Shown piece after piece: positions 2,608 to 16,658 of a DNA stretch of 16,658 nucleotides. Positions within the stretch are counted from its first letter, which is position 1. Every line of letters begins with the position of its first letter. The notes under the pieces are model-generated. The model was not told the DNA's origin and searched no databases. It saw only the letters and a program-made list of their open reading frames with translations. This stretch comes from Ramlibacter sp. (GTDB lineage Bacteria > Pseudomonadota > Gammaproteobacteria > Burkholderiales > Burkholderiaceae_C): the NCBI GenBank assembly GCA_025351615.1, contig JANXVP010000071.1, positions 1-16,658 of the forward strand. The letters run 5' to 3'. A program made the position numbers and the translations under genes.

Positions 2608-2628
2608 GGCGAGCGACGCCGTTCGATG

Positions 2629-3630
2629 TCAGCGCGTGTCCTGAATGACCGTCTTGATCCGGCTAAGCGTCGCACTCCGCGCATCGTCCCACTTCACGTC
2701 GTTATACGGCAGGACCTTGATCCTGGAGAGGGCCGGCATGCCGCCAGGCATGGTGGACAGATCGATGTCCTGGCGGGCCGGGCGGCGGAACGTCGCCTTG
2801 AAGAGCATCTCCTGCGCCGGCCTGCTGGCGAGATAGTCAATCAATGCACGGCCGGCATCAGCTTCAGGCGCGCCCTTGAGGAGGGCTGCGCCTTCGGCGA
2901 GCGCCAGCGTGCCTTCCGTCGGATAGGTCACTTTCACGGGCGCCCCGTTATGGGCCCACAGGTAGCCGGCGTATTCGAGCGAGATGCCGAGCGGATATTC
3001 GCCGCTGCCATTGCCGTCGAAAACCAGCGTCGATCGATTGAGAATCTTGCTGTTGGCGACAAGCGACGAAAATTTGCTCCAGGCCGCACCGTTGTCGCCC
3101 CAGTACGTGAGCAGGGCCGTCGCGGCGCCATATGAAAAGCCCGAATTCACCGGGTCGGTGAAGGCGATCTTCCCCTTCCATTTTGGGTCCAGCAGGTCCT
3201 GCCAGGTCTTCGGACCGCTCGCGGGGTCGATCGCTTTCGTATTCTGGTTGATGGTGACGACCTGCAGGTTCGTGCCGATCCAGAGATTGCTCGGGTCGCG
3301 ATACTCGGCTGGGACTGCTTCACTGCCTTTCACCGCGTACGGATGAAAAAATTTCACGTTTTGCTTCAGCAGGGCGGAGCTGACACCCCAAACGACATCG
3401 GCCTGCGGATTCGCCTGTTCCGAAACGATGCGGCGAAAGAGCACGCCCGATCCGGTGGAGACCACATTGACCATCATGCCGGTTTCCTTCTTGAAACCGT
3501 CGGCAACCAGCTTGTTCACCGTATCGTCATTCGCCGAATACAGCACGACATGGTCCGCCGCCGCTGCCGGTCCGCCGGCGACGGCCGCCGCCAATGCCAG
3601 CGCGCCCATACACGAAGTCATCAGTCTCAT
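2629..3630 (-). CDS. ABC transporter periplasmic substrate-binding protein, AfuA/FbpA-like (COG1840-type)
   Basis: Periplasmic receptor (333 residues) for the ABC importer encoded downstream. It has a Sec signal: basic MRLMTS start, an Ala/Leu-rich core, and likely cleavage after PAAAA near residue 25. The mature protein opens with VVLYSANDD, a class II binding-protein fold start shared with the FbpA/AfuA family. Later segments such as ADVVWGVSSALL, WKGKIAFTDP and GEYPLGISLEYAGYLW also fit that family. The His, Glu and paired Tyr ligands of classic ferric-ion FbpA are not obvious, so iron should not be assumed. Relatives bind sugar phosphates or phosphonates. The start at 3630 is preceded by GAGGAG about 7 bases upstream, and a promoter lies at 3665-3693. 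It is the first gene of the unit. Confidence 0.93.
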   Translation of the reverse strand: MRLMTSCMGALALAAAVAGGPAAAADHVVLYSANDDTVNKLVADGFKKETGMMVNVVSTGSGVLFRRIVSEQANPQADVVWGVSSALLKQNVKFFHPYAVKGSEAVPAEYRDPSNLWIGTNLQVVTINQNTKAIDPASGPKTWQDLLDPKWKGKIAFTDPVNSGFSYGAATALLTYWGDNGAAWSKFSSLVANSKILNRSTLVFDGNGSGEYPLGISLEYAGYLWAHNGAPVKVTYPTEGTLALAEGAALLKGAPEADAGRALIDYLASRPAQEMLFKATFRRPARQDIDLSTMPGGMPALSRIKVLPYNDVKWDDARSATLSRIKTVIQDTR

Positions 3631-3704: not shown

Positions 3705-4694
3705 CTACTGCAAGGGGATGCTTTTTCCTCTGATCACTTTGGCCCAGGTTTTCTGTTCCGACTGGATGAACGCGCCGAACCTTTCCGGCGAACTGACCAC
3801 CAGCTCGAACCCCTGGTCGCCCAGGCGTTTGGCGATATCAGGGTTCTTCATCGCCTTGGCGATCTGCTGATTCCAGAATGCGACGATTCCAGGAGCAGTG
3901 CCCGCCGGCGCCAGAAGTCCGATCCACCCGTAGGCCTCGAAATTCGGCAGCCCTTGTTCTGCCACCGTGGGCAGCGCGGGGAATGCGGGGCTGCGCGTTG
4001 CACTCGCCTGGCCCAGTGCCTTGAGCTTTCCGGCATTGACGAGGCTTTGGGCGTACGGAGCGGTGCCCCACATGACTTGAACCTGGCCCGCCATCAAATC
4101 CGTTTGTGCGGGGGCGCCCCCTTTGTACGGCACATGCGTCATCGAAACGTTGGCAGTCATGTTGAACAGTTCGGCCGTCAAATGGCTCGCGCTACCCGCG
4201 CCGACCGAGGCAAAGTTCACCGCGTTGGGATGCTGCCTGGCGTATTTGACAAGTTCCGTCATGTTGTTGGGGGGGGAATTTTCATTGGCGACCGCCACCA
4301 TCGGTGCCCGGGCAATCAAGGAAATCGGGACGAAGTCCTTGTCCGTGTCGTAGGGGAGCGTCTTGTACACCAGCGGGTTGATCGCGTGGCTGTCCAGCAC
4401 GAGAAGCAGGGTGTAACCATCAGCAGGGGATTGGGCGGCGGCGGCAGCACCGATCGAACCGCTCGCGCCGCTGCGGTTGTCCACCACGATCGACTGTCCG
4501 ATGGACCGGGATATTTCCGGCATCAGGATGCGCGCCATACCGTCGACCAGCCCGCCGGCAGGAAACGGGACGATGACACGGACAGTCTTGCTCGGGTAGG
4601 CCGCCGGTTGCGCGTGAGACGAGCCGGCAAAGGCAGCCACTGCAAGGAAACAAGCCGCAAGGATTGATCGGACGGCTGAACTTGATTGGATCAT
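3705..4694 (-). CDS. Bug/TctC-family periplasmic solute receptor (tripartite tricarboxylate-type)
   Basis: Periplasmic binding protein (329 residues) of the Bug family, which usually captures small carboxylates and their amides. The start is ATG 4694, chosen because AGGA lies about 8 bases upstream and a signal peptide follows directly (MIQSSSAVRSILAACFLAVA, cleavage after SHA near residue 28). The frame stays open upstream, but that extension would run through the divergent control region and lacks a signal. Family hallmarks are YPSKTVRVIVPFPAGG just after the signal, NRSGASGSIGA, THVPYKGGAPAQ, and a C-terminal FIQSEQKTWAKVI. No TctA/TctB membrane partner is encoded here, so it is an orphan receptor. 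It diverges from the aconitase-type genes across a shared control region, suggesting co-regulation and a related substrate. An 8-base C run lies in the coding strand at 4269-4276. Confidence 0.93.
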   Translation of the reverse strand: MIQSSSAVRSILAACFLAVAAFAGSSHAQPAAYPSKTVRVIVPFPAGGLVDGMARILMPEISRSIGQSIVVDNRSGASGSIGAAAAAQSPADGYTLLLVLDSHAINPLVYKTLPYDTDKDFVPISLIARAPMVAVANENSPPNNMTELVKYARQHPNAVNFASVGAGSASHLTAELFNMTANVSMTHVPYKGGAPAQTDLMAGQVQVMWGTAPYAQSLVNAGKLKALGQASATRSPAFPALPTVAEQGLPNFEAYGWIGLLAPAGTAPGIVAFWNQQIAKAMKNPDIAKRLGDQGFELVVSSPERFGAFIQSEQKTWAKVIRGKSIPLQ

Positions 4695-4759
4695 GGTCAA
4701 TTTCCTGGGTTGGGATGATTGCGGCAGCGGGACGAGTGGCCTGCCGTTGTTAAGATAAC

Positions 4760-4773
4760 TGGACTTCAGTCCA
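4760..4773. promoter_or_regulatory. 14-bp palindrome, candidate operator in the divergent control region
   Basis: TGGACT-TC-AGTCCA, with two perfect 6-bp arms around a 2-bp centre, lies between the diverging Bug receptor and hydro-lyase genes. It overlaps the first copy of the 18-bp tandem repeat. Size and position fit a dimeric repressor or activator site. No regulator gene is in the window, so the binding protein is unknown. Confidence 0.4.
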
Positions 4774-4800
4774 AGCGCAGAATTCAGTCCAAGCGCAGAA
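4765..4800. repeat. exact 18-bp tandem duplication in the divergent control region
   Basis: TTCAGTCCAAGCGCAGAA occurs twice, head to tail, at 4765-4782 and 4783-4800 with no mismatch. It ends three bases before a -10-like TACAAT (4803-4808) on the plus strand. Either a recent slippage duplication or a repeated activator site would explain it. Confidence 0.85.
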
Positions 4801-4802
4801 TT

Positions 4803-4808
4803 TACAAT
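4803..4808 (+). promoter_or_regulatory. candidate -10 box for the hydro-lyase genes
   Basis: TACAAT matches the -10 consensus at 5/6. No good -35 stands at 16-18 bp spacing; that space is filled by the 18-bp repeats. The promoter, if real, is probably activator-dependent. Transcripts would start near 4815, leaving a leader of about 65 bases before the first possible start at 4879. Confidence 0.35.
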
Positions 4809-4878
4809 CGCCCGCTGGAACCTGACTCCAGCCCTTCCCGGCGATTGGAGCCCCGTTTTTCCATCAAGGAGCAACCCC

Positions 4879-4905
4879 ATGAAGACCGGGCACCGCCTGT
4901 CGTGA
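4879..4905 (+). CDS. putative 8-codon leader ORF, coupled to the hydro-lyase large subunit
   Basis: A strong Shine-Dalgarno AAGGAG (4867-4872) precedes ATG 4879, which opens MKTGHRLS and then stops. The stop overlaps a GTG in the large-subunit frame (GTGA, 4902-4905). The best ribosome binding site of the region therefore serves this tiny frame, not the big gene. It may be a leader peptide that delivers ribosomes to the GTG. Alternatively, the start region may have suffered a one-base frameshift that detached the original N-terminus. Nothing recognisable is encoded. Confidence 0.3.
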   Translation: MKTGHRLS

Positions 4906-6182
4906 AAGCACTTGGCAAGACGATGGCCGAGAAGCTGCTTTCGCGTGCCGCCGGCCGTGACCTGCACGCCGGCGAAGTGGCCGTTTGCAAGGTCGATGGC
5001 GCCATGGGCACCGACGGCTCGATTCCCATGGCGTTGGATTATCTGCAGCGCATGCAGGACGATGGCCTGCTGCCCGCCCCGGCCTGCCCGGAGCATCTGG
5101 CTTTTGCCTTTGACCACTACGGGCCTTCCTCGGGTGAGCGCGCTTTGCAGCTACAAGACCGGTCACGCCTCTATGCCCAGGCCTACGGCATCCGGGTGTT
5201 CGACGTCGGAGACGGCATCGGCCACCAACGCATGATGGAATGTGGCCTGGTTCTGCCCGGCTTGCTGATTGCCGGCGCGGACTCCCACGCCGTGTCCTAC
5301 GGCGCGCTGAACGCATTCGGCACCGGCATCGGCTCGTCCGATTTGGCCGGAATACTGCAATGCAATCAACTCTGGCTGAAGGTACCGGAGTCCTTGAAGA
5401 TCACGCTGCTGGGCGCCCTGCGCGGCCACGCATCGGCCAAGGATGTGGCATTGACGCTTGCACGCAGGCTCGGTGCCGACGGCGCCAACTATCTGGCGCT
5501 GCAATTCGACGGTCCAGGCCTGGCTGCGCTCGACATGGACGACCGCATCGTGCTCGCCAACATGTCCGTAGAAATTGGTGCCAAAGCCGGATTGTTCCCG
5601 TTTGACGAAATTACCCGGACCTACCTCGAAGGCCGCTGCAGTCGTCCCTACGTACCGGTCGACGCTGACAGGGACGCCCGGTATGCCTCCACCTTGGTGC
5701 TCGACCTGGCCGAGGTGGTGCCTCAGGTGGCTCTGCCGCACCGGGTCGACAACGTGGTGGACCTGTCCGAAGCGCCTGCTACTGCCATCGACATGGTCTA
5801 CCTGGGCACGTGTACCGGAGGCCGTACCAAAGACTTCCGCGAGGCATTGGAGGTATTGCACGAAGGTGGCGGGGTAGCGGCCGGTGTGCGTCTGATCGTG
5901 ACACCGGCATCCGAAGAGGTGCGTGCCGAACTGCAGAGCAGCGGCATGTTGTCGGCGTTCGAAGCGCTGGGTGCCGAGATTCAGCCACCCGGCTGCGGCG
6001 CCTGCTGCGGAACCTGCGGGAGCATTCCGGAAGATGGCGCACGCATCGTTTCGACTGCCAACCGAAACTTCAAAGGGCGCATGGGCAACCCCGAGGCACA
6101 TATCTACCTGGCGTCGCCCAAGGCCTGTGCCGCCGCCGCCGTGCGCGGTAGCTTGGGCCGGACGGTCGGATCGGCACAATGA
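4902..6182 (+). CDS. aconitase/isopropylmalate-isomerase-family hydro-lyase, large subunit (LeuC/HacA-like)
   Basis: Large subunit of a [4Fe-4S] hydratase/isomerase acting on a hydroxy di- or tricarboxylate. With GTG 4902 as start it has 426 residues; with ATG 4923 it has 419. Both fit the short archaeal-type LeuC/homoaconitase group. Visible motifs are FDHYGP (about 71-76), GIGHQ (105-109), [10 protein letters not shown] (126-135), [12 protein letters not shown] (219-230), and the cluster cysteines C304 in GTCTGGR plus C365 and C368 in [17 protein letters not shown] follows near 388-396. The frame continues upstream through the tandem repeats, but that part has no family similarity. The small subunit follows with a 4-bp overlap. 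The substrate is open: isopropylmalate, homoaconitate, dimethylmalate and citraconate-type acids are all possible. Confidence 0.9.
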
Positions 6183-6691
6183 TCGATCTTGCCATCCGGG
6201 GGCGTGCCAGGGTGCTGGGCGACGACGTCAACACCGACTACATCATTTCCTCACGCCGCAAAAAGGAAAGCCTGGATCAATCCGTTCTGCGTCGATTCCT
6301 GCTGGAAGACCTGAACCCCGCGTTTGCCGCCAGCGTGTCCGAGGGCGACATCCTCGTGGCCGGCAGCAACTTTGGCTGCGGCTCGGCCATGGAGGTCGCA
6401 GTCACCGTGGTGCTTGGCGCCGGCATCCGTGCGGTCGTGGCCAAGAGCTTCTCGCGAACCTACTGGCGCAACGCGATCAACAATGGGTTGCTGCTGCTGG
6501 TGGCCGACACGAGTGGCATCGCCGAAGGCGCGCCCTTGGAACTGAGTCTGGAGGGTGCCCGACCCGAATTGAAGGTCGGGGCCGCACCTGCAAGGCGCGT
6601 CGCCTGTGAGCCCGTTCCAGACTTCATGCTGACCATGCTAGAGGCCGGGGGCCTTGTTCCCTATTTGCGCAGGCACCGCAAGCTGGCCTGA
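6179..6691 (+). CDS. aconitase/isopropylmalate-isomerase-family hydro-lyase, small subunit (LeuD/HacB-like), altered active-site motif
   Basis: Small (swivel) subunit, 170 residues, which closes over the iron-sulfur subunit and supplies the catalytic serine and substrate-binding residues. Family hallmarks are [10 protein letters not shown] (14-23), [14 protein letters not shown] (56-69) and [16 protein letters not shown] (88-103). The usual GSSRE motif reads GSAME here: S69 is kept, but the next Ser and the carboxylate-binding Arg are replaced by A70 and M71. The specificity loop after DYII is SSRRKKE, very basic and unlike the YL-type loops of isopropylmalate isomerase and homoaconitase. This points to a non-standard substrate. 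ATG 6179 overlaps the large-subunit stop, so the two are made together. The replacements are read directly; their functional meaning is inference. Confidence 0.9.
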
Positions 6692-6762: not shown

Positions 6763-7443
6763 CTAAAGAATAACGCCTTTGCTGCGCAGATAAGCGTCGA
6801 TCCAGTCGCGCTTGTCCTGGCCAGAGGCGATCAAACGCTTGCGCTCGGTCTCGCGCTGCGCCTGCCGACGGGCGCCATCGAGCACGCTTTGCAGCAGGCG
6901 CTGCGGAATGGCGATCACGCCGTCTTCATCGCCCACCACCAGGTCTCCCGCATCGACCGACATGCCACCGACGCTGACAGGTACATTGATTTCACCCGGA
7001 CCATCCTTGAATGGACCGCGCAACGTATTGCCGCGCGCATAGCACGGAAAATCGGCGTCGTAGAACGCCGCCACGTCGCGAATCGCACCGTCGATGACGA
7101 AGCCGGCGACGCCGCGGACCTGCGCATGCATCATCATCAGTTCACCGACCAGCGCCTGCGACACGTCGCGATTGGCATCGACCACGATGACGTCGCCGGA
7201 TTCGGCCATGTCGAGCGCCTTGTGAATCATCAGGTTGTCGCCCGGCCGCGCCTTGACGGTAATCGCGCGCCCGACCAGCTTCTGTTCCCGGTGATAGCGT
7301 TGCAGGCCGACACTGCCGGTCAGGCGATTCATGCTGTCGCCGATATGCGGCGTCACCATCTCGCGGTAGGCCTCGATGAAAGCCGTGGAAATTTTTTCCG
7401 GCATCGCAAGAATGCGAAATCCTGCTTGGTCGATTGTGCTCAT
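6763..7443 (-). CDS. RraA-family aldolase/decarboxylase (4-hydroxy-4-methyl-2-oxoglutarate aldolase-like)
   Basis: Cytoplasmic protein (226 residues) of the RraA / HMG-aldolase fold. Members cleave 4-hydroxy-4-methyl-2-oxoglutarate-type acids to pyruvate or decarboxylate oxaloacetate using a divalent metal; some only inhibit RNase E. The catalytic signature is intact: GELMMM (100-105), then GFVIDGAIRD (114-123), where R122 and D123 correspond to the pyruvyl-binding Arg and metal-binding Asp. The intact pair and catabolic context favour an enzyme over an RNase regulator. Start ATG 7443 is preferred over an in-frame ATG 33 bases upstream because AGGGA lies just before it and the family's N-terminal region begins there. 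It is the last gene of the long minus-strand cluster, 29 bp after the aldehyde dehydrogenase. The actual substrate is unknown. Confidence 0.9.
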   Translation of the reverse strand: MSTIDQAGFRILAMPEKISTAFIEAYREMVTPHIGDSMNRLTGSVGLQRYHREQKLVGRAITVKARPGDNLMIHKALDMAESGDVIVVDANRDVSQALVGELMMMHAQVRGVAGFVIDGAIRDVAAFYDADFPCYARGNTLRGPFKDGPGEINVPVSVGGMSVDAGDLVVGDEDGVIAIPQRLLQSVLDGARRQAQRETERKRLIASGQDKRDWIDAYLRSKGVIL

Positions 7444-7472
7444 TGGTTGATCCCTTATATGCAAAACGCCGG

Positions 7473-8885
7473 TCAATAGGCGATGGTGACCAGGCGCTCT
7501 TCGGTCATTTCCCGGATCGCATAGGCAGGACCTTCCCTGCCGAAGCCGCTATCCTTGACGCCGCCGAACGGCATCACATCAACGCGGGCACTCGATGCTT
7601 CATTGATGTGAATGCCGCCGAAACGCAGTACGCGCGCCGCGGAAAAGGCGACATGCAAATTGGAGGTAAAGACGCCGACGGACAAGCCGAACGGCTGCGC
7701 ATTTGCACGGGCGATCGCCTCGTCGAGCTGATCGAATTCGGAAATCGACATTACGGGCGCAAAGATTTCTTCGCAAACAACCTTCATCTTGTCCGTCACG
7801 CGATGCAAAACGGTAGGCTGCAAAAGGCTCCCCTCGCGGCGGTCGCCGGTCAGAATTTCGGCGCCACCGCTAACCGCTTCGGCAATCCAGGACGACGCAC
7901 GTTGCGCATGCTGAGTGGTGATCATCGGGCCGATGACGGTCGACGGGTCGCCCGGGTCTCCGAATTTCATCGCGCGTGCGGCGGCAACAAATTTCGGAAT
8001 GAATTCGCCCGCGATCTTCTGGTCGACGAACAGGCGCTGCACCGAAGTACACACCTGACCTGCCTTGCGGAATCCTGCATTGACGATTTTCGGAATCGCA
8101 AGGTCGATATTGGCGTCATGGCACACAATCGTGCTCGCGATGCTGCCAAGCTCAAGTTGGGTTCCACGCAGACCCGCGGCCCGCTGAATCTCGCGGCCGA
8201 CCCGGGTGCTTCCGGTAAATGCATAGAAGGAGATACGCTGGTCAGCCAGAAGCTGCGGGCCGATGATGCCGCCGTCCCCATGAAGCAGCGACAGCAAATT
8301 GGCGGGGAGGCCGGCCTCAATCAACACCTTGCAAAGCTCGACGGCAGTCAGCGGCGTGTACTCCGAAGGCTTCAGCACTACTGAATTGCCACCTGCCAGA
8401 GCCGGGCCGACCTTGTGCGCTATCGTGTTGAGCGGTGAATTGAACGGTGTAATTGCGCAAACCACCCCGCGCGGTCCCCGAATCGTAAAACCGACCCGGT
8501 TTTTCACCCCCTGCGCGGCCTCCATCGGCACCATCTCGCCGACCAGGCGTTTTGCTTCTTCCGCCGACAGTTCCAGAGTCTGCACACACCGGCGAACCTC
8601 ATTTTCGCCGTCGGCGCGTGTGAAGCCCGCTTCGGCGCGCATCAGATCAACCAGCCGGTCGATGCGGTTTTCGAGAATGCGCGCTGCGGCGCCGAGAATC
8701 TTGAACCGGTCGTACGGCGCAAGCCTGGAAGTTGCCTGTCCTGCGACTACTCCGGTTACGGAGGCCTCGACCTGCGCCGCGGAGGCTACCGCCATCTCAC
8801 CGTAGACCGCACCGGTAAATTTGTCGGTCAGGGCCTGCGTCGATTCGCCATCCACCCATTTGCCGCCGATCAAAAGCTGAGACAT
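7473..8885 (-). CDS. NAD(P)+-dependent aldehyde dehydrogenase
   Basis: Soluble aldehyde dehydrogenase (470 residues, normal length) oxidising an aldehyde to its acid. Motifs in order: TPFN with N149 for the oxyanion hole, K172 in KPSE for the cofactor, the Rossmann loop FTGSTRVG (223-230), general base E245 in LELGS, nucleophile C279 in GQVCTS, and EEIFAPV in the C-terminal catalytic region. The usual ELGG reads ELGS. ATG 8885 has GAAGGA about 8 bases upstream, and that site overlaps the end of the decarboxylase beta gene only 5 bp away. The aldehyde made by the decarboxylase is therefore its likely substrate. If that enzyme acts on sulfo- or phosphonopyruvate, the product would be sulfo- or phosphonoacetate; a carboxylated or branched aldehyde is equally possible. 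Confidence 0.92.
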   Translation of the reverse strand: MSQLLIGGKWVDGESTQALTDKFTGAVYGEMAVASAAQVEASVTGVVAGQATSRLAPYDRFKILGAAARILENRIDRLVDLMRAEAGFTRADGENEVRRCVQTLELSAEEAKRLVGEMVPMEAAQGVKNRVGFTIRGPRGVVCAITPFNSPLNTIAHKVGPALAGGNSVVLKPSEYTPLTAVELCKVLIEAGLPANLLSLLHGDGGIIGPQLLADQRISFYAFTGSTRVGREIQRAAGLRGTQLELGSIASTIVCHDANIDLAIPKIVNAGFRKAGQVCTSVQRLFVDQKIAGEFIPKFVAAARAMKFGDPGDPSTVIGPMITTQHAQRASSWIAEAVSGGAEILTGDRREGSLLQPTVLHRVTDKMKVVCEEIFAPVMSISEFDQLDEAIARANAQPFGLSVGVFTSNLHVAFSAARVLRFGGIHINEASSARVDVMPFGGVKDSGFGREGPAYAIREMTEERLVTIAY

Positions 8886-8890
8886 AGGAT

Positions 8891-9547
8891 TTATCCTTCA
8901 ATATTGGCGCCGTGCGAGGCTGCTTTTGATACGGCAAGGCCTTGCATGAAGCGGCCACGGATCTTTGCCGCATCACGTTCGGTAACGCCGGCCGGCGGCT
9001 TGTCGTCAGTCCGCGCCGCGATAAACCATGGACCGTCTTGCGTCAGCACGCAGTCAATGAGTTGCTCGAAATGCGCTTCGTCGGCGGCCCAGGTGCTTTG
9101 GAAGAGGCCCGTGCCCTTGGCCACCGCCACCAGGTCCGTGCCATACGATGTGAGCGTAGGCTGCGAGCCAGTGATCTGGTAGACACCGTTGTCGAAAACG
9201 ATGATTGCCAGATTTTTCTGGTTGGCGACTGCAATGGTTCCCAGTGCGCCGAGCTGCATCAGCATCGAGCCGTCGCCTTCCAACGCAAATACCCGGCGAT
9301 CAGGTTGCGCCATCGCAACGCCAAACGCGATCGGTGCTGCAAGCCCCATGCTTCCGAGCATATAGAAATTCTGGGGACGCTGGCCGCTCGCCCACAGGTC
9401 AAAATGGGTATGGCCGATGCCGCCAATGACGGCCTCTGCCTTGCGAAGCTTCGCCACGAGACGGCGAGTAATATCCGAGCGGTTCATGACCTTCGCCATG
9501 TCCCGTCTGGGCGATTTCATTTCATTTGCAGACATGGCAGCTCTCAC
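8891..9547 (-). CDS. thiamine-diphosphate decarboxylase beta subunit (sulfopyruvate/phosphonopyruvate decarboxylase type)
   Basis: C-terminal (pyrophosphate-binding) half of a ThDP-dependent 2-oxo-acid decarboxylase, as a separate polypeptide of about 218 residues. GDG at 91-93 starts the ThDP/Mg motif, which ends about 27 residues later at N120 in FDNGVYQITG. GSMGLAAPIAFGVA (65-78) is the usual preceding helix. ComE-type sulfopyruvate decarboxylase beta subunits have this layout, as does the C-terminal half of phosphonopyruvate decarboxylase. The start taken is GTG 9547, which overlaps the alpha stop (GTGA) and implies coupling. ATG 9535 or ATG 9487 are possible, since the first 20 residues look non-conserved. 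It must pair with the alpha subunit, because the activating Glu is there. Confidence 0.88.
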   Translation of the reverse strand: MRAAMSANEMKSPRRDMAKVMNRSDITRRLVAKLRKAEAVIGGIGHTHFDLWASGQRPQNFYMLGSMGLAAPIAFGVAMAQPDRRVFALEGDGSMLMQLGALGTIAVANQKNLAIIVFDNGVYQITGSQPTLTSYGTDLVAVAKGTGLFQSTWAADEAHFEQLIDCVLTQDGPWFIAARTDDKPPAGVTERDAAKIRGRFMQGLAVSKAASHGANIEG

Positions 9548-10083
9548 TTCTTGATGGTGTTCGTCAATAGCGGGGACAGAATGATCGCCGCGGGTGCCTG
9601 GGTTGCAAACGCCTGATTGATCATCCTGTCCACGATAAACTCGACATCCTCCGTACGCGTAATCGCATGGTGTTCAATGCCTAGCGTCTCCAGAACAGGC
9701 CGCATCATCCGGCAAACGATCGCTTGACCCAGTTGGAAGTCGCCCAACGTGCCACGTTCCGAAATCATCATCAGCAGAGGGATCTGATAGGGAACCGCGA
9801 GAGAAGCCAGGACATTCGGAATCGTCGCGAATCCGCTCGTCTGCATCAGCACGATGCCGCGCAGTCCGGCCATGTAGGCGCCGGTCACGATACCTACCGC
9901 CTCTTCTTCGCGAGCCGGGCAAATGACTGTGAAATACTCATCCGCGTGCAGCCGCTTGATCAGCGGAGCAAGGACTTTATCCGGGACATAAGTTATAAGC
10001 CGGACCTGATTTTCCTTCAAGACCCGTGCAACGATCTCATCCCAGGCTTCAGGGGGTGGACCGGCGGCATTGACAGCAGACAT
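9544..10083 (-). CDS. thiamine-diphosphate decarboxylase alpha subunit (sulfopyruvate decarboxylase type)
   Basis: N-terminal (pyrimidine-binding) half of the same ThDP enzyme, 179 residues. YVPDKVLAPLI (32-42), CPAREEEAVGI (55-65) with the glutamate that activates the cofactor, and MQTSGFATIPN (80-90) are typical of ComD-type sulfopyruvate decarboxylase alpha chains. The segment after SERG reads GTLGDFQLGQ, not the DEPQH-like stretch I associate with phosphonopyruvate decarboxylase. The start is ATG 10083 because AAAGGAG lies 5-11 bases upstream; an in-frame ATG at 10104 would place that site inside the gene. It overlaps beta by 4 bp, so both halves are made in equal amounts. The reaction class, 2-oxo acid to aldehyde plus CO2, is well supported. 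The acid is not known. Confidence 0.88.
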   Translation of the reverse strand: MSAVNAAGPPPEAWDEIVARVLKENQVRLITYVPDKVLAPLIKRLHADEYFTVICPAREEEAVGIVTGAYMAGLRGIVLMQTSGFATIPNVLASLAVPYQIPLLMMISERGTLGDFQLGQAIVCRMMRPVLETLGIEHHAITRTEDVEFIVDRMINQAFATQAPAAIILSPLLTNTIKK

Positions 10084-10110
10084 TTCTTCTCCTTTTTTTG
10101 TCATCGGGCA

Positions 10111-10194
10111 TTACTGCGCCTTGGGCAGCACTTTGCATGCACCTGGCGACGCGGTGCCATCAGCACGAACACCGGAATTCTGCGCGTGTGTCAT
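10111..10194 (-). CDS. possible 27-residue coupled small ORF
   Basis: ATG 10194 overlaps the stop of the preceding Bug gene (TAATG) and opens 27 codons (MTHAQNSGVRADG... ending LPKAQ) to TAA at 10111. It fills most of the 110-bp gap before the decarboxylase alpha gene. It has no Shine-Dalgarno of its own and no recognisable motif. It could be a coupled microprotein or chance. Confidence 0.18.
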   Translation of the reverse strand: MTHAQNSGVRADGTASPGACKVLPKAQ

Positions 10195-11180
10195 TAGTTG
10201 AGTTTGATGTTCGCCTCAGTAACTACCTGACCCCACTTTTTCGATTCCGAGCGCATCAGGTTCGACAACACCTCAGGTTTGCCACCGACAACGTCGAAGC
10301 CCATGTCGGTCAGTTTCTTGTGCATCAGCTTGTCCTGCAGCGCCCCATCGAACGCGGCGTTTAGTTTGGCGATGATCTCCCTTGGCGTATCCGAGCGCAC
10401 CACAAAACCATACCAGGAGATCAGTTCGAAACCGGGCACACCGGATTCGTCGACGGTCGGCAGATTCGGAAACTGGGGCGAACGCGCGAGTGTCGTGATG
10501 GCGAGCGGACGGAGGCGGCCCGCATTCACCAGCGCCATCGATTCCGGCAAAATCGCGATCGACATCGTTGTCTCGCCACTGACCAGACCTGCCAGCGCGG
10601 GGGCGCCCCCCTTGTAGGGAATGTGGGTCATCTCGATGCCGGCCATCATCTTGTACATCTCGGTGCCGAGGTGCCCGGGTGAACCATTTCCCGCAGTTGC
10701 GTAGTTCTCCTTGCCGGGCCGGCTCTTCAGATATGCGGTCAGCTCTTGCATCGTCTTGACGGGAACTGAAGGGTGGACGAGGACCTGGCTCGCCTGTTTC
10801 GTGGCGAGAATGATCGGAGCAAGGTCTTTCTGCGGGTCGTATGGCGACGCTTCCTTGTAGAGATGCGGATTCACTGCGAGCGCCGCCGAGGTTCCCAGAA
10901 AGATGGTGTAACCATCCGCCGGCTGCTTGAGAACCTGGCTCACTGCGATGTTGCCGCTGGCGCCTGGAAGATTCTCGACGATGACCGGTTGGTTGAACCG
11001 ATCGCTTAGCTCCTTCCCAAGCATGCGCGCCAGAACGTCGGTAGACCCGCCTGGCGCATAGGGCACGACAATTTTAATGATCTTGTTCGGGTAGTCCGCT
11101 GTCGCATCGGCGGCATAGGCACTGCTCCCGTGCAGCGTCGACAGGACGAGGGCCAACGTGAGCACCACGATATTTTCCAT
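10194..11180 (-). CDS. Bug/TctC-family periplasmic solute receptor, second copy
   Basis: Periplasmic receptor (328 residues) of the Bug family, embedded in the catabolic cluster and so probably binding its starting substrate. Hallmarks are YPNKIIKIVVPYAPGGS, NLPGASGNIA, THIPYKGGAPAL, LPTVDESGVPGFE and the C-terminal LMRSESKKWGQVV. Signal peptide MENIVVLTLALVLSTL ends with cleavage after AYA near residue 23; its n-region lacks a positive charge. The start at 11180 has GGAG 7 bases upstream. An in-frame ATG at 11237, with GAGG 7 bases upstream, would add 19 residues including an Arg, so the start is not fully settled. It lies downstream of hydantoinase B in the same direction. No membrane partner is present. 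It is clearly diverged from the receptor at 3705-4694, so this is not a recent duplication. Confidence 0.92.
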   Translation of the reverse strand: MENIVVLTLALVLSTLHGSSAYAADATADYPNKIIKIVVPYAPGGSTDVLARMLGKELSDRFNQPVIVENLPGASGNIAVSQVLKQPADGYTIFLGTSAALAVNPHLYKEASPYDPQKDLAPIILATKQASQVLVHPSVPVKTMQELTAYLKSRPGKENYATAGNGSPGHLGTEMYKMMAGIEMTHIPYKGGAPALAGLVSGETTMSIAILPESMALVNAGRLRPLAITTLARSPQFPNLPTVDESGVPGFELISWYGFVVRSDTPREIIAKLNAAFDGALQDKLMHKKLTDMGFDVVGGKPEVLSNLMRSESKKWGQVVTEANIKLN

Positions 11181-11250
11181 AGCGAATCTCCACTGTGCAA
11201 GGATTAAAAAATTGCAATGTAAAAAGCATCGCTGCATCGGGCTGCCTCAG

Positions 11251-12897
11251 TCACCGCTCTGCTCGAACTGAACAGGTATAGCCATGTAAACGGTCGTACG
11301 ACTGCAAGGCGTCGTTGCGCTCGCTGGCAGGACCGTAACCACCGCCGCCGGGCGTGCGCAATATCACCTCATCGCCCGGTGCAAGAACATGTGGCCGACG
11401 ACTGTCCACCGCAGCTCCGTTGATCAATACTTCGCCGCATGCCCCGGCCTCGCCTCCGGCAAGACCCGGAGCGGGCACATGAAGCCGTTCTGTCAGAAAG
11501 ACAATCGACAGCGGCCCGTCATGTTGGTTGACAAAGCAGATTTCTTCCCCCAACCCGCCGCGCGAGCGTCCGGCTCCGCCCGACCCGGGCCGCAGGCGCT
11601 TGTAGCGGAAGAACAGTGGTGCATCCCTCTCCGCAATCTCCACCGGAGTCGGCGAAATATTGCTCGGCCACGACATTGCCGATGAACCATCTTTCCCGGC
11701 GGTGCCGCCCATCCCCCCGTTATAGAAGAGCACCGTGGCGAACGGCTTGCCGTCCGGCCGCATTCCGCTCATATTTGCAATCCACAGCGGCGAGCCGGCG
11801 CCGGCCATGACGCGATCCGGGAGGACTGCCTGCAGGGCGCCAAAAATCACGGTCGGTACATAGTGTCCGGTACAGGCGCGACCGCCGACGGGAGCCGGTG
11901 ATTTCGGATTGACAATCGTGCCCTCGGGCGCGACTGCCCGGATCGGCCGAAACAAACCATCGTTATTCGGAAGATCCGGCAGGAGCAGGCACTTGATCGC
12001 ATAGACAGTCATCGCGTAGGTATAAGCCATCACGCAATTGATCGCGCGCGGCTGCTGCGGCGAAGTTCCCTCGAAATCGCATTCGATTTCGCTTCCCTGA
12101 ATTTTCACGGCGACGGCAAAGCGGAACATGTTCTCGAAGCCGTCGGTCTGCATCTCGTACGGGTACACGCCATCCGGAAGTTTCGAGATCGCCTGCCGCA
12201 TCGCAGCTTCACCGCGGTCGAACAGGGCTTCAGCGAGATCGTCGATGCCGTCCAGCGCGTACTCGGTCAGCACCTCGCCAAGCCGGCCCGCAACCAGTTC
12301 CACCGCGCCAACCTGGGACCAGATGTCGCCGACGGTTTGCTCGGGCGTGCGCACGTTGGTGCGGATCAGAGAAAGCAAAGTCTCGTCGTGTTTTCCTTCG
12401 CGCAGCAAGCGCATCATCGGGATCTGGAAGCCTTCCTCGAACAGCTCGCGCGAATCGACAGAGCGGATTTTTCCGCCGATATCGGGGACGTGACCCGCAG
12501 TCGCGGCAAAACCTATCAGCTTCGCCAGATGGAAAATCGGCTTGACCAGGCAGACGTCGTTCAGATGTCCGGTTCCGATCCATGGATTGTTCGTAATATA
12601 AATGTCGCCAGGCCGCATTTCATCGGTACCGATCTGTGCCAGCGCCGCTCTTACCGTACGTGGCAAGGTGCCGATGAACGACGGAATGCTTCCGCTGTTT
12701 TCGGCAAGGGACCGCCCTGACGAATCGGTGACGACCACAGCGAAGTCATTGGCTTCCGTGGAAAGGGTGGAAAACGATGTCCGTACGATCAGCTTCGCAG
12801 CTTCATCCGCGATGGAACGCACGCGCGTCCAGAAGACCTCCAGAAAAATTGGATCGGCCGTCCGTCCCGTGGTGCGCATTTGATTTTCCATCCTCAT
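11251..12897 (-). CDS. hyuB: hydantoinase B / N-methylhydantoinase-oxoprolinase family beta subunit
   Basis: Cytoplasmic partner (548 residues, normal length) of HyuA in an ATP-dependent enzyme that opens cyclic amides (hydantoins, 5-oxoproline) or, in relatives, carboxylates ketones. Family hallmarks are PGDIYITNNPWIGTGHLNDV (96-115), AGHVPDIGG (134-142), a conserved C-terminal RLRPGSGGAGRSRGG, and the ending RTPGGGGYG. H111, D114 and H136 have the same +3/+22 spacing I recall for the metal ligands of acetone carboxylase's homologous subunit, so a metal site is likely intact. ATG 12897 overlaps the HyuA stop by 4 bp, with AGGA just upstream. An in-frame ATG at 12891 is possible. It depends on HyuA, which is frameshifted here. 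Confidence 0.93.
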   Translation of the reverse strand: MRMENQMRTTGRTADPIFLEVFWTRVRSIADEAAKLIVRTSFSTLSTEANDFAVVVTDSSGRSLAENSGSIPSFIGTLPRTVRAALAQIGTDEMRPGDIYITNNPWIGTGHLNDVCLVKPIFHLAKLIGFAATAGHVPDIGGKIRSVDSRELFEEGFQIPMMRLLREGKHDETLLSLIRTNVRTPEQTVGDIWSQVGAVELVAGRLGEVLTEYALDGIDDLAEALFDRGEAAMRQAISKLPDGVYPYEMQTDGFENMFRFAVAVKIQGSEIECDFEGTSPQQPRAINCVMAYTYAMTVYAIKCLLLPDLPNNDGLFRPIRAVAPEGTIVNPKSPAPVGGRACTGHYVPTVIFGALQAVLPDRVMAGAGSPLWIANMSGMRPDGKPFATVLFYNGGMGGTAGKDGSSAMSWPSNISPTPVEIAERDAPLFFRYKRLRPGSGGAGRSRGGLGEEICFVNQHDGPLSIVFLTERLHVPAPGLAGGEAGACGEVLINGAAVDSRRPHVLAPGDEVILRTPGGGGYGPASERNDALQSYDRLHGYTCSVRAER

Positions 12898-15000
12898 GAA
12901 TCCTGGTCCGTCATCGTAATCACCAGGTTACCGCTCGAAAGTTGTTCGACATGTCCTTTCGGACCGACCACCAGCGATGAGCTGGTGTCTTCGATCACCA
13001 GCGGTCCGGGTGCACTGAAACCTGCAGGCAGCATCGAACGCTCATAGATCGGGGTGGGGAGATATTCGCCCGCTTCCCTGAAGTACACCTCGCGAATTCC
13101 CTTTGGCGCTGGCAAGGAGCCATGGCCCAGCGCTTCGGGTGTAAATCGTTCGCGCGGCGGCGCATCGCCGGCAATGCGCAGGTTCACCAACTCCACCGGG
13201 ACGTCGGGCGGTGTACGGCCAAACTTCTCCTGATAGACGGCTTCGAATGCCGCGACCAGCTTGGCACGAACTTCTTCTTCAGAGCCGGTGTGCACGCCTG
13301 TATACGGGCCCTCGGGCAGCTTGACGGAGAGGTTGAAACCCTGGCCGACGAAACGCCCGTCCGCCTGGCGCGTCAGAGTGATCGGGCCGAACGTATCCGC
13401 CAGGTGTTCGAGCGATGCGCGAGCCTGCGTTTCTAGCGCGGAAAATGCCTGTTCGATCGCCTCGAGCGAGTCCGAGGAAGGCCGAAAACTCATCGTGCGC
13501 GAGCGATCCGCCCGAGCCGATGCCACCAGCAGGCCGTATGCCGACGCCACCCCCGCTGCCGGCGGACAGATGATGGTCCGCACGCCGATTTTCCGGGCCA
13601 CGTAGTAGGAGTGCAGCGGACCCCCGCCGCCGGTGCATAGCAGCACGAAGTCGCGTGGATCCCGCCCGCGTTCAGCAACGTGAACACGAGCGGCGCCCGC
13701 CATGTTCTCGGCGACGATGTCATGCATGCCCCACGCGATATCGATCACGTCCCGTCCCAGCGACGCGCCGAGTCGTCCGATGGCTGCAGCAGCTTTGGTG
13801 CGATCGATCGACAGCGAGCCGCCTGCAAAATAGTCCGGGTTCAGATAACCGAGAACCAGATTCGCGTCGGTGACCGTCGGTTCGCTGCCGCCACGGGAGT
13901 AGCATGCCGGCCCCGGTTCCGATCCTGCACTCTCCGGTCCGACCTTGCAACCCGAGTTGATCCTGGTGGGCGATACTGCCGCCGCCAGCGCCGATCTCGA
14001 TCAGATCGACCGTGGTAATGCGAATCGGCAGACCGCTGCCCTCGGCAAAGCGCTTGCGCCGAGCCGCCTCGAAACCATAAGCGATGGACGGCCGGCCATG
14101 CTCGATAAGGCTGAGCTTGGCGGTGGTTCCGCCCATGTCGAACGCCAGCAGATGCGACTGGCCATCGCGCAAACCGTAATGAGCGGCAGAAATGGCGCCA
14201 GCGGCCGGGCCGGACTCAAGCAGTTCAATCGGGTTGCGCCTGGCTTCCGAGAGATGACATAAACCTCCATTCGACAGCATCATGAGCACACCGCTCATCA
14301 GCCCCAACGTGCTCAGTCGTTCCTCGAGCGCATTCAGATAGCGGTTTGCGAGCGGCTTGATATACGCGTTTGCAACCGTGGTCGAGATGCGCTCGAACTC
14401 GCGAATCACCGGCGCCACGTCCGAAGACAGCGTGATTTCCATCGCAGGAAAATCGCGCTTGATCCATTCGGCGACCATTCGCTCATGCCTTCCCGACGCA
14501 TAAGAATGCAACAGACAGACGGCGATCGATTCCACTCCTGCCTTCACCAGAGTGGCTACTGCGGTATGAACGTCGCGGGAATTCAGCGGCTCCAGTTCAT
14601 TGCCCTTTGCGTCGAGGCGTCCGCCAATTTCGGCGCGCTGATTGCGCGGCACCAGCGGCGGCGCGCGATCGATCGCCAAATCATAAAGATCGTATTTACG
14701 CTCATGCCCGATCTCGATCACATCCATGAACCCCTGGTTAATCAGCAACCCTGTGGAAATGCCGCGGCGCTCGATCAGGGCGTTCGCAAACAGCGTCGTC
14801 GCATGGACGACGCGCTTCACTTCGGGTGGGTTGATCCTGCATGTCCTGATTAGTTCGCTGACGCCGTCCGTCACGCCTTGCGCCGGATCGCCGTGCGTCG
14901 TCAACACCTTCAGGCTGTGAAGCTTGCCGGCTGAATAATCGAGAGCCACCACGTCGGTAAAAGTGCCGCCAATATCAATGCCTATTGCCCACTGAGTCAA
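12894..15000 (-). pseudogene. hyuA: hydantoinase A / oxoprolinase family alpha subunit, interrupted by a one-base frameshift
   Basis: ATP-binding half of the HyuA/HyuB enzyme. Residues 1-352 are read from TTG 15000 (GGAG 6 bases upstream; no ATG available). They include the actin-like phosphate loops IGIDIGGTFTDVV (6-18) and FDMGGTTAK (288-296), then SNGG and GAGGGSIA. At 13943-13944 one extra G shifts the frame. Read on in the next frame, the protein resumes at once with VGPESAG, EPGPACY, DANLVLGYLNPDYF and CTGGGGPLH, and runs to the stop at 12894. Removing one base gives 701 residues, normal for the family. Both halves are otherwise clean, so the event is very recent or is a sequencing error. 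As written, translation runs off-frame to a stop at 13720, leaving a protein without its C-terminal domain. HyuB follows with a 4-bp overlap. Confidence 0.92.
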
Positions 15001-15022
15001 AAAAATCTCCAGGCTGGTTAAA

Positions 15023-15052
15023 TGTTCACAAGCGTTTGTTCACGCTCGCGAG
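15023..15052. repeat. direct and inverted repeats in the aminotransferase-HyuA gap
   Basis: TGTTCAC occurs at 15023-15029 and 15037-15043. AGCGT/ACGCT (15031-15035, 15042-15046) can pair across a 6-base loop, and CTCGCGAG (15045-15052) is a palindrome. Together they fill the only sizeable gap in the 5' half of the cluster. They could mark an mRNA processing hairpin or protein site; chance is not excluded. Confidence 0.3.
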
Positions 15053-15064
15053 TGGTGGCATCCT

Positions 15065-16267
15065 TCAGACCAGAACCTCGCATGCCAATCGAATCCGGCG
15101 GCATCCCTCCTGAAGTTGCGCTTCCGGAGCGGCAAATGAAATCCGGAAGAATGGCGACATGCCATATGCTTCACCCTGGATGACAGCGACGTTTTGCGAT
15201 TCCAGCAGATGCATCGCGAAGTCGGAATCGTTTTCAATGGTGGTTCCACCCGGGGTCTTTTTCCCGATCGCGCCGGCGCAGGACGCAAACACATAAAACG
15301 CACCTTCCGGCTTGTGACACGTCACCCCGGGAGCTTCATTGAGCCATTTGACAACCTTGTCGCGGCGATTCTGGAACACCTCGCGGCTGGTGACGATGAA
15401 ATCCTGTGGGCCCGTCAACGCCTGCACTGCGGCGGCCTGGCCGATCGCAGACGGATTGGATGTGCTTTGCGATTGCAGCTTCACCATGTTTTTGATCAGC
15501 GCCGCCGGTCCTCCTGCATAGCCGATTCGCCAGCCCGTCATCGCGTATGCTTTCGATACGCCGTTGATGGTCAGCGTGCGCTCCTTCAGCGCCGGCTCCA
15601 TCTGCGCCGGGGTGGCAAATTCGTGGCCGTCGTACAGCAGATGTTCATAGATGTCGTCAGCCATCACACCTACATGCGGATGCCGCATCAGGACATCGGT
15701 GAGCGCCTTCATCTCGGCTCGCGTGTATGTCGCGCCGCTTGGATTGCTCGGTGAGTTCAGGACCAGCCAGCGCGTTCGCGGCGTCATCGCCTTTTCGAGC
15801 TGGTCGGGATGCATCTTGAAGCCGCTCTCGGGAGGGCAATGGACAAACACCGGATTGCCGCCGGCCAGTCGCACGATATCCGGATACGAGACCCAGCATG
15901 GCGCCGGCACGATGACTTCGTCACCGTGTTCGACCGTGCACATCAGTGCATTGAAAATCGCCTGCTTGGCGCCGCTGCAAGCAATGATCTCGTTCGTCTC
16001 ATAGTTCAGGCCATTCTCGCGCCTGAACTTGTCCTTGATCGCCGCCTTCAGATCCGGCGTGCCGCCGACGTCGGTGTATTTGGTCTTGCCGGCCCTGATC
16101 GCGCGGATCGCTGCTTCCTTGATGTGATCCGGCGTATCGAAGTCGGGCTCTCCCGTGGTCAAGCCGATCACATCACGCCCCGCAGCACGTAATTCACGCA
16201 CCCGCTGTCCTGCCATCGAACTGGGCGACGGTTTGATGCGGTTCAGCCTGCCGGAAATATGAATCAT
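15065..16267 (-). CDS. class I/II aminotransferase, aspartate aminotransferase-like (Ib-type)
   Basis: PLP-dependent aminotransferase (400 residues, typical of prokaryotic Ib aspartate aminotransferases). Visible elements are TTGEPDFDTP (37-46), GGTPDLKAAI (68-77), NSPSNPSG with N175 (171-178), DDIYEHL with D205 and Y207, PLP lysine K239 in NGVSKAYAMTGWRIGY, and R375 in FRISFA for the substrate carboxylate. The Arg and fold favour acidic or short amino acids such as aspartate, glutamate or a cysteate-like analogue, giving a 2-oxo acid. That is the class of substrate needed by the decarboxylase downstream. It starts at ATG 16267, 33 bp after the MmgE/PrpD stop, with GGGG about 8 bases upstream. 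A 64-bp gap follows before HyuA. Confidence 0.93.
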   Translation of the reverse strand: MIHISGRLNRIKPSPSSMAGQRVRELRAAGRDVIGLTTGEPDFDTPDHIKEAAIRAIRAGKTKYTDVGGTPDLKAAIKDKFRRENGLNYETNEIIACSGAKQAIFNALMCTVEHGDEVIVPAPCWVSYPDIVRLAGGNPVFVHCPPESGFKMHPDQLEKAMTPRTRWLVLNSPSNPSGATYTRAEMKALTDVLMRHPHVGVMADDIYEHLLYDGHEFATPAQMEPALKERTLTINGVSKAYAMTGWRIGYAGGPAALIKNMVKLQSQSTSNPSAIGQAAAVQALTGPQDFIVTSREVFQNRRDKVVKWLNEAPGVTCHKPEGAFYVFASCAGAIGKKTPGGTTIENDSDFAMHLLESQNVAVIQGEAYGMSPFFRISFAAPEAQLQEGCRRIRLACEVLV

Positions 16268-16300
16268 TTTTGTACCCCAGTAATTTTCGATGAAGAGGAA

Positions 16301-16658
16301 TCACGCTCTGGCACGAGGGAGCGTTGCCAGCTGAAGATCGCGGACGCCAAGTTGCTCCATGTGCCACAGCTTTTCGAGCAGCGCACGCGCGCGATCGGTG
16401 CCGATCACCGGCGGCGCCAGTTCCATAAACTTGTCATTGAGCTCAGCATCGGTCAGAGGGGCCTCGGGGTCTCCTTTACGATATGGGGCAAACTTTTCGA
16501 TCACTTCGCCACCGTTGAGCTTGACCTTGATCCGTGCGGCACGCATGCCCGGGAAATTGGCGCTGAAGTCCGGATCGTCGTTCAGCGTCATCTTTGCCAT
16601 CAGCCTGCGGATTTCCCCGTCGGACAGGCGCTCCTGGCTGAACGCGTTCAGCCGGACG
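16301..16658 (-). CDS. MmgE/PrpD family protein, C-terminal part only
   Basis: The C-terminal 118 residues of a MmgE/PrpD-family protein; the frame is open across the right edge, so the 5' part lies outside. The family (about 450 residues) includes 2-methylcitrate dehydratase, cis-aconitate decarboxylase and iminodisuccinate epimerase, all acting on polycarboxylates. Recognition rests on FPGMRAARIKVKLNGGEV followed by APYRKGDPEAPLTDAEL and FMELAPPVIG, the usual lid-domain ending in which RKG and the LTDAEL helix are conserved. Catalytic residues lie outside the window. It is upstream of, and co-directional with, the aminotransferase (33-bp gap), so it probably belongs to the same operon. Its presence hints at a di- or tricarboxylate intermediate. 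Confidence 0.88.
   Translation of the reverse strand, partial: VRLNAFSQERLSDGEIRRLMAKMTLNDDPDFSANFPGMRAARIKVKLNGGEVIEKFAPYRKGDPEAPLTDAELNDKFMELAPPVIGTDRARALLEKLWHMEQLGVRDLQLATLPRARA

Follow-up and report, generated by a model that had tools for sequence, protein, structure and literature searches.

A candidate catabolic gene cluster around a split thiamine diphosphate decarboxylase in Ramlibacter sp.

In Pseudomonas jessenii, caprolactam is degraded by the products of a single gene cluster, which encodes the caprolactamase CapAB, an omega-aminotransferase and a 6-oxohexanoate dehydrogenase (PMC6061476; this and the other papers are cited from excerpts of their text). Two-subunit thiamine diphosphate (ThDP) decarboxylases were described in a 2025 paper as rare and as confined, among earlier finds, to the biosynthesis of rhizocticin and of coenzyme M (PMC12746152). 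Here we describe a 16,658-nucleotide stretch of Ramlibacter sp. DNA, hereafter the window, in which the genes for such a split decarboxylase lie among genes for a HyuAB-type enzyme, an aspartate-type aminotransferase and an aldehyde dehydrogenase (ALDH). Caprolactam degradation is the nearest described pathway among those we found. The individual families are known, and no description of the combined route or gene set was found in the literature searched, most subscription papers lying outside the reach of that search.

From protein families, retained catalytic residues and recurring gene neighbourhoods, all read from sequence, we infer the order of steps, the substrates, and hydrolysis rather than carboxylation by HyuAB. 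The substrate would be imported through a Bug receptor and an ABC importer. HyuAB would then open the lactam with ATP to give an alpha-amino dicarboxylic acid, and the aminotransferase would convert this into a 2-oxo dicarboxylic acid. The two-subunit ThDP enzyme would decarboxylate the latter to an anionic semialdehyde, which the ALDH would oxidise to a shorter dicarboxylic acid. In a side or follow-on branch, LeuCD would hydrate the carbon-carbon double bond of the 2-oxo acid to give a 4-hydroxy-2-oxo acid, an RraA-like protein would cleave this to pyruvate and another acid, and PrpD would act on a polycarboxylate product. We judge this to be a real catabolic cluster of recurring modules with a clade of split ThDP decarboxylases at its centre. 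The overall scheme is moderately likely; that the cluster serves a carboxylated lactam, or else the alpha-amino dicarboxylic acid that corresponds to it, is given slightly less than an even chance.

The split decarboxylase and its aldehyde dehydrogenase

The beta subunit exceeded the 240-bit cut-off of NCBIfam model PRK06163 (Table 1), to which no function is assigned. The closest solved relatives were RhiE (9iz3_A) for the alpha subunit and RhiF (9iz3_B) for the beta subunit. The alpha subunit carries the motif MQTSGFAT, of which MQTSGF was present in 79 of 79 aligned sequences of the window's clade and the full octet in 78. At the same place RhiE has MQNSGLGY and 9u8r has MENSGLRR; the window subunit lacks the MQNSGLG of RhiE, a difference that counts if, as we assume, this loop bears on the substrate. 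PDB entries 9u8q, 9u8r and 9u8s represent another split ThDP enzyme. Close relatives of the beta subunit were scarce around the source genome. At E ≤ 1e-70 the only match among 369 genomes of the class was the genome itself, at E ≤ 1e-50 there were five among 399 genomes of the order, and at E ≤ 1e-15 seven among 200 genomes of the family, its own included in both counts and the best other family match being 39% identical. Of the 200 family genomes, the two listed under the window's own genus gave no match at E ≤ 1e-15. The source genome also carries a second, distant split ThDP pair (locus L143, G000:C537, 889-7685; 31% and 38% identical), flanked by a Bug receptor gene and one for a protein like D-2-hydroxyacid dehydrogenase, and lying behind the genes for two full-length ThDP enzymes.

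A profile of 26 beta subunits was compared with genome contigs and gave at least 581 confirmed stretches. The best 80, together with L129-L131, formed a set of 83 loci; the 80 are the closest relatives only, so that the counts do not give frequencies across the family at large. Neighbours within 8 kb of beta were counted by tblastn, the distance limit and the identity thresholds (at least 50% for ALDH, 55% for the aminotransferase and 35% for RraA) being of our own choosing. The alpha gene was found in 82 of the 83 loci, D-2-hydroxyacid dehydrogenase in 35, ALDH in 29, HyuB in 20, TcuA in 17, RidA in 14 and PrpD in 13. ALDH occurred with HyuB in 17 loci and with PrpD in 10; where at least 6 kb was available on both sides (54 loci), ALDH was found in 18, with HyuB in 13 and with PrpD in 7. 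All but two of the 29 ALDH loci (27) have the ALDH gene as the next one after beta, which suggests that the ThDP pair makes the aldehyde. In the two exceptions an aminotransferase gene intervenes (L059) or the ALDH gene comes before (L063).

A tree of concatenated alpha and beta sequences had 80 rows, L030 and L043 being left out for want of a usable alpha. It placed the ALDH loci in a single 33-row clade (SH-aLRT 96), in which 27 rows, the window counted, had ALDH. Three of the other rows are cut short, L018 and L049 less than 1 kb from beta and L032 2.1 kb behind it. Outside this clade ALDH was found in none of 46 rows, the outgroup excepted. Because the ALDH loci are confined to one clade, the ThDP pair and ALDH form one module that was largely inherited.

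The ALDH retained Cys279, Glu245 and Asn149. Its R99 and R434 aligned with arginines of ALDH21 (5mz5) that we take to be the carboxylate-binding R121 and R457. R99 was present in all 29 sequences compared (the window and 28 relatives), and R434 in all 26 that reach that position. The conservation of both arginines suggests that the predicted substrate is an anionic semialdehyde.

The loci differed in the genes that accompany the pair. One subclade of 14 rows (SH-aLRT 99) had HyuAB and RidA in 13, the remaining row (L050) ending 744 bp behind beta, and some of its members add genes for an acyl-CoA ligase, a thioesterase and a molybdenum hydroxylase; HyuAB, RidA and a hydroxylase gene also occur in L030, which the tree does not include. 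In 14 loci RidA stood behind HyuB, with no aminotransferase of the window type nearby. At such loci HyuAB would open an unsaturated lactam to an enamine, from which RidA would form the 2-oxo acid. Genes for molybdenum hydroxylases of the CO-dehydrogenase/xanthine-dehydrogenase type lie behind HyuAB-RidA-Bug in L030, L031, L035, L037, L041 and L044. Their presence there suggests that the starting compound in part of this subclade is an N-heterocycle; a picolinate- or pyrrole-carboxylate-like substrate is our guess, on which a literature search brought up nothing relevant.

In another subclade TcuA and TcuB lay ahead in five of seven rows, with PrpD behind in all four of these that are uncut, and both Tcu proteins of L025 exceeded their NCBIfam cut-offs. 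TcuA-type genes were found near the pair in L021, L024-L026, L028, L034, L036, L045, L052, L055, L090, L091 and L096, with weaker matches in L046, L054, L066 and L078; these genes, annotated as tricarballylate dehydrogenase, may act on another substrate here. L017 and L023 have PrpD ahead and HMG-CoA-lyase-like and CaiB-like genes behind ALDH. A CaiB-like and HMG-CoA-lyase-like pair handles (R)-citramalate in Chloroflexus, and on the basis of these genes itaconate or citramalate may be the ALDH product.

The 35 loci with a D-2-hydroxyacid dehydrogenase gene were mostly from Bradyrhizobium (L060-L062, L064, L068-L074, L076, L077, L079-L087, L089, L092-L095 and others); the gene is mostly divergent from the pair, in what looks like a lineage-stable gene set. 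In L048 and L051 a class V aminotransferase resembling the aspartate-glyoxylate aminotransferase BhcA (430 bits, cut-off 650) is encoded behind the pair.

HyuAB, the aminotransferase and LeuCD

Two loci combined most of the enzymes of the proposed route. L019, from the metagenome-assembled genome Ramlibacter tataouinensis UBA6035, holds eight of the nine genes that a first-pass annotation of the window had listed, plus Bug2, LeuCD and ABC genes, in one direction and in the order PrpD, HyuA, HyuB, Bug, alpha, beta, ALDH, Bug2, LeuC, LeuD, aminotransferase, ABC. It has no RraA, an opposed LysR-type gene lies between Bug and alpha, and its ALDH and LeuC appear broken. In L059 (Advenella sp. S44) a single run reads HyuA-HyuB-alpha-beta-aminotransferase (63%)-ALDH (55%). 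The first-pass annotation had proposed a route from cyclic amide through amino acid, 2-oxo acid and aldehyde to acid, and this remains the best-supported order, HyuAB, aminotransferase, pair and ALDH recurring in L019 and, differently arranged, in L059. It had also suggested a search for the co-occurrence of HyuAB, the pair and ALDH; the core of pair and ALDH recurs more than by chance, with HyuB at 17 of the 29 ALDH loci, but the full set of nine does not. Eight of the nine genes came together in L019 only, one of 80 relatives, and an RraA-like gene lay near beta only in L040 among the 83 loci, which argues against a fixed nine-gene operon.

HyuA had been listed as one gene. Its family was correctly named, but the gene consists of two open reading frames (ORFs) in different frames (13720-15000 and 12894-13748), and the frameshift had been missed; we place it at 13946-13948, the uninterrupted HyuA of L019 aligning in two pieces. 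Because a near-identical unbroken protein exists (P0241, of 702 amino acids (aa), on a 14,759-bp contig; identity 99% across 82% of the query ORF), the break is an assembly error or limited to this strain. HyuA carries both nucleotide-site motifs, IDIGGTFTD and FDMGGT. In HyuB the metal tetrad is kept, D51, H111, D114 and H136 aligning with D41, H99, D102 and H124 of the caprolactamase subunit CapB (6yra_B), in which these ligands are required (PMC8453981). The hydantoinase 7hk5, which scored better against HyuB, has Gln aligned with the fourth ligand.

In a HyuB tree the window, L019 and L049 clustered with HyuBs of genomes G516, G341 and G547, in none of which a close beta subunit was found by the order search (its 399 genomes are assumed to be the same sample). 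The HyuBs of RidA-type loci formed another group, with relatives unlinked to any pair. A tree that forced the two types together was rejected (approximately unbiased test, p = 2.65e-8; 37 rows, with long branches and duplicates removed). The long branches were L033, L129 and L042, and the result held after removal of these, of L112 and L106, and of four duplicate rows. L059 was not separable from the RidA-type HyuBs as a distinct joining (p = 0.165). HyuAB thus joined the pair-ALDH module at least twice, which backs the order of chemistry given above. With HyuAB genes so widespread in these bacteria a single joining could be chance, an explanation that accounts less easily for two or more.

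Best among 73 families for the aminotransferase was the aspartate transaminase PRK06107, yet the score fell short of the cut-off (Table 1), and its best PDB matches were the aspartate aminotransferases 6f77 and 6f35. As an indirect sign of linkage, longest contigs of equal size (at least 5 kb) and the same source were counted across 119, 117 and 120 homologue rows. Homologues of the aminotransferase and of window-type HyuA coincided in this way in 11 cases, beta and aminotransferase in 4, and beta and HyuA in 2, against a chance level of 0.03 to 0.07 (sizes shifted by 1 to 50 bp; 0.05 expected for aminotransferase and HyuA). One of the four beta/aminotransferase cases (13,959 bp) comes with no stated source and may stem from a variant of the organism that carries the window. 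Of 374 genomes of the order, 6, the source genome among them, had the aminotransferase at E ≤ 1e-170; they include all three other genomes with a HyuB at 61-72% identity, two of which are of one genus. In L160 and L161 the aminotransferase gene adjoins one for a D-2-hydroxyacid dehydrogenase, and L160 has a class II aldolase gene too.

The range given in the first-pass annotation, 6763-16658, leaves out LeuCD, which adjoins it on the outside, on the opposite strand. LeuCD are near the aminotransferase in both L019 and L162, and for this reason we judge them to be members of the same system. In one run of L162 (G509), LeuC (57%) and LeuD (66%) are followed by a binding protein of the glutamate/aspartate type (351 bits against a cut-off of 375) and then by the aminotransferase (66%), RraA (51%) and two amino-acid permeases. 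In L114 (G341) an RraA-like gene (44%) lies less than 2 kb from HyuA-HyuB on the opposite strand. The RraA-like protein of the window keeps the catalytic Arg-Asp pair of the HMG/CHA aldolase (PMC5065237). LeuCD, aminotransferase and RraA look like a second module, built around a hydratable, cleavable 2-oxo dicarboxylic acid; the grouping draws on the window, L019 (without RraA) and L162.

Gene content and organisation of the window

The window is an entire contig (G000:C235) of an assembly of 3.86 Mb in 583 contigs, 91% complete and 2.65% contaminated. All nine families in the first-pass list were found, co-directional from 16657 to 6763 (Table 1). PrpD was right as to family but is a short C-terminal fragment, since the window stops there; its full-length relative in L019 (454 aa, to which the fragment is 69% identical) was closest in the PDB to the IDS-epimerase 2hp3 and next to cis-aconitate decarboxylase. 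The three ABC genes follow the aminotransferase in L019, 90-95% identical.

Table 1 Predicted features of the window, with supporting family matches
Feature	Position	Strand	Basis and remarks
MmgE/PrpD family, C-terminal fragment of 118 aa	16301..16657	-	PF19305 75.6 bits, cut-off 32.1; truncated at contig end
Class I/II aminotransferase, aspartate-type	15065..16267	-	PF00155; NCBIfam PRK06107 594 bits, cut-off 617
HyuA, ATP-binding subunit, hydantoinase/oxoprolinase/lactamase-type, frameshifted	12894..15000	-	PF05378, PF01968 and PF19278 across two ORFs
HyuB, metal-binding subunit	11251..12897	-	PF02538 504 bits
Bug/TctC periplasmic receptor	10194..11237	-	PF03401 231 bits; start tentative
ThDP decarboxylase, PYR-type (alpha) subunit	9544..10104	-	PF02776 27.0 bits, cut-off 26.8
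ThDP decarboxylase, PP-type (beta) subunit	8891..9547	-	PRK06163 338 bits; GDGS...NG motif; likely start 9535
Aldehyde dehydrogenase (ALDH)	7473..8885	-	PF00171 457 bits
RraA-like class II pyruvate aldolase/decarboxylase family	6763..7476	-	NCBIfam PRK06201 287 bits, cut-off 231
LeuC/homoaconitase-type hydratase large subunit	4917..6182	+	NCBIfam PRK00402 430 bits, cut-off 385
LeuD/DmdB-type hydratase small subunit	6179..6691	+	NCBIfam TIGR02087 135 bits, cut-off 109
Second Bug/TctC receptor (Bug2)	3705..4700 (coding part of ORF 3705-5117)	-	Relative in L019 89% identical; start tentative
ABC importer	2..3630	-	Binding protein 2629-3630, ATPase 1546-2607, fused permease 2-1549 (cut)

In the order PrpD to RraA, with HyuA counted as one gene, the gaps were 33, 64, -4, 13, 89, -4, 5 and -4 bp. 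Of the three 4-bp overlaps, two hold only for particular choices of start. M5 of the beta subunit, the start used by most of 25 aligned homologues, would give an 8-bp gap instead of an overlap, and RraA has a TTG start with an alternative ATG 33 bp further in. The region contained 3 promoter-like sites (3.2 ± 1.9 in shuffles) and 14 terminator-like sites (9.3 ± 3.2 in shuffles). GC content was 60.9%, compared with 64.8-68.7% at seven other measured loci of the genome and 61.4% at an eighth. Because this is lower than at most of the loci measured, the contig may be of foreign origin or have been assigned to the wrong bin.

The proposed route, its alternatives and described systems

For the carboxylated lactam route we guess, from the transamination step and the LeuCD/RraA branch, that 4-substituted glutamates such as 4-methyleneglutamate, or the corresponding pyroglutamates, are likeliest as substrates. 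The 2-oxo acid of 4-methyleneglutamate would either be hydrated to 4-hydroxy-4-methyl-2-oxoglutarate, a substrate of the RraA-related HMG/CHA aldolase (PMC5065237), or be decarboxylated and oxidised to itaconate. A more far-reaching version, which we consider improbable as a whole, is that the MQTSGFAT pair would be a separate class for catabolic decarboxylation of 2-oxo dicarboxylic acids, which bacteria would have fitted with varied front ends: lactam opening, transamination, RidA deamination, tricarballylate-type dehydrogenases and D-2-hydroxyacid dehydrogenases. The window would then serve lactams or amino acids of the 4-substituted-glutamate type (plant non-protein amino acids like 4-methyleneglutamate), with pyruvate and acids resembling itaconate or citramalate as end products.

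Several observations weigh against the route. The aminotransferase lay within 8 kb of beta in just 2 of the 83 loci, so the other loci must obtain the 2-oxo acid by other means; none of the 35 loci with D-2-hydroxyacid dehydrogenase had ALDH, and RraA and LeuCD were rare next to the ThDP pair. Within the window's own clade L020, L027 and L040 lack ALDH despite 10 kb on each side, and G516, G341 and G547 carry HyuAB and the aminotransferase on separate contigs. In this contig itself HyuA is frameshifted, and the HyuAB families include carboxylases as well. Coding-strand terminator-like sites lie at two gene borders, 11232-11214 directly behind HyuB and ahead of the receptor start chosen in the first-pass annotation, and 16316-16301 at the PrpD end; if real, they argue against a single transcript.

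A rival reading is that there is no single pathway and that separate modules (HyuAB-Bug; pair-ALDH-PrpD; LeuCD-aminotransferase-RraA-ABC) became adjacent by chance, perhaps on a horizontally moved island. The modules do stand alone elsewhere, HyuAB-Bug in L113, LeuCD-aminotransferase-RraA in L162 and pair-ALDH-PrpD in L017, L021-L025, L028 and L029, and both the lower GC content of the window and the sites at the two borders fit such a patchwork. It leaves unexplained why HyuAB joined pair-ALDH repeatedly and independently, and why L059 and L019 are arranged as they are. We regard it as unlikely, though a serious contender.

HyuAB might instead be a carboxylase of the acetone or acetophenone type, the cluster degrading a ketone or heteroaromatic compound through ATP-dependent carboxylation. 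The Asp-His-Asp-His site, common to hydrolases and carboxylases, does not tell one from the other. Both proteins match the Apc carboxylase models, and molybdenum hydroxylase genes are nearby in part of one subclade. However, the Apc scores (HyuA 109 + 48, HyuB 76 bits) were lower than those for the caprolactamase CapAB (HyuA 225 + 128 over its two frameshifted ORFs, HyuB 186 bits), themselves short of the NCBIfam cut-offs of 1000 bits each. PDB matches ranked an N-methylhydantoinase first, then a caprolactamase subunit and carboxylases last, and the links with the aminotransferase and RidA indicate nitrogen release. Given the lower model scores, this reading was set aside as having only a small chance.

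A sulfonate or phosphonate route would lead from cysteate or phosphonoalanine, taken up by a 2-aminoethylphosphonate-like ABC importer, to sulfo- or phosphonopyruvate and, after decarboxylation, to sulfo- or phosphonoacetate; a cysteate-like sulfonate was among the substrates first suggested. The closest characterised relatives of the pair are indeed the ComDE-type models and RhiEF, the ALDH matches the PhnY and SafD models, and the ABC genes match 2-aminoethylphosphonate models. Every match nevertheless fell below its curated cut-off: sulfopyruvate decarboxylase ComD (TIGR03845) 116 versus 147.95 and ComE (TIGR03846) 147 versus 221.5, phosphonoacetaldehyde dehydrogenase PhnY 356 versus 635.65, sulfoacetaldehyde dehydrogenase SafD 338 versus 700 and PhnS2 144 versus 393 bits. 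Lactaldehyde dehydrogenase likewise scored 423 versus 650 bits, and the phosphonopyruvate decarboxylase model TIGR03297 (cut-off 312.5 bits), a fused-protein model that handicaps a split enzyme, matched the two subunits with 72 and 129 bits. The alpha motif differs from that of RhiE. HyuAB, LeuCD, RraA and PrpD are left without a role, and the family-model scan of 16 window proteins turned up no enzyme recognisable as cleaving C-S or C-P bonds. With family scores and alpha motif opposed to it, we set this route aside as very unlikely. Least likely of all, and a slim chance, is that a heteroaromatic or cyclic imino carboxylate is the direct substrate of the pair, with ALDH acting on a later aldehyde: LumKL, compared here by description and not by sequence, is a two-subunit ThDP heterocycle decarboxylase from a catabolic cluster (PMC12746152), and molybdenum hydroxylase genes lie near 6 of the 83 loci, yet the position of ALDH right behind beta suggests that the pair itself makes the aldehyde.

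One clade of split ThDP decarboxylases thus occurs in catabolic-looking clusters across several proteobacterial groups. With at least 581 stretches related to beta and an NCBIfam model that lacks a function, many genomes would gain a catabolic annotation if the function were established, and the neighbourhoods narrow the candidate substrates to a short list.

The window resembles described systems in part. Its RraA-like protein shares the Arg-Asp pair with the HMG/CHA aldolase; unlike that enzyme it belongs to PRK06201 and scored 139 bits against the 179-bit cut-off of the HMG/CHA aldolase model PRK09262. Like the phosphonopyruvate decarboxylase RhiEF and the sulfopyruvate decarboxylase ComDE, the pair is a split ThDP enzyme of two small subunits (PMC12141560). 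RhiEF and ComDE are biosynthetic, in contrast, and the pair differs from RhiE in its alpha motif and stays under the cut-offs of both families. The quinoxaline decarboxylase LumK/LumL of riboflavin catabolism (20 and 23 kDa) is likewise a two-subunit ThDP enzyme from a catabolic cluster (PMC12746152); its substrate is a heteroaromatic acid, and the text of the paper mentions neither a hydantoinase nor an aldehyde dehydrogenase. With the caprolactam cluster the window would share a two-subunit ATP-dependent lactamase, an aminotransferase, a semialdehyde dehydrogenase and a dicarboxylic acid as end product. It differs in having a class I/II aspartate-type aminotransferase together with a ThDP decarboxylase, and in HyuAB scoring under the CapAB cut-offs; an alpha-amino acid, unlike an omega-amino acid, would require the extra ThDP step.

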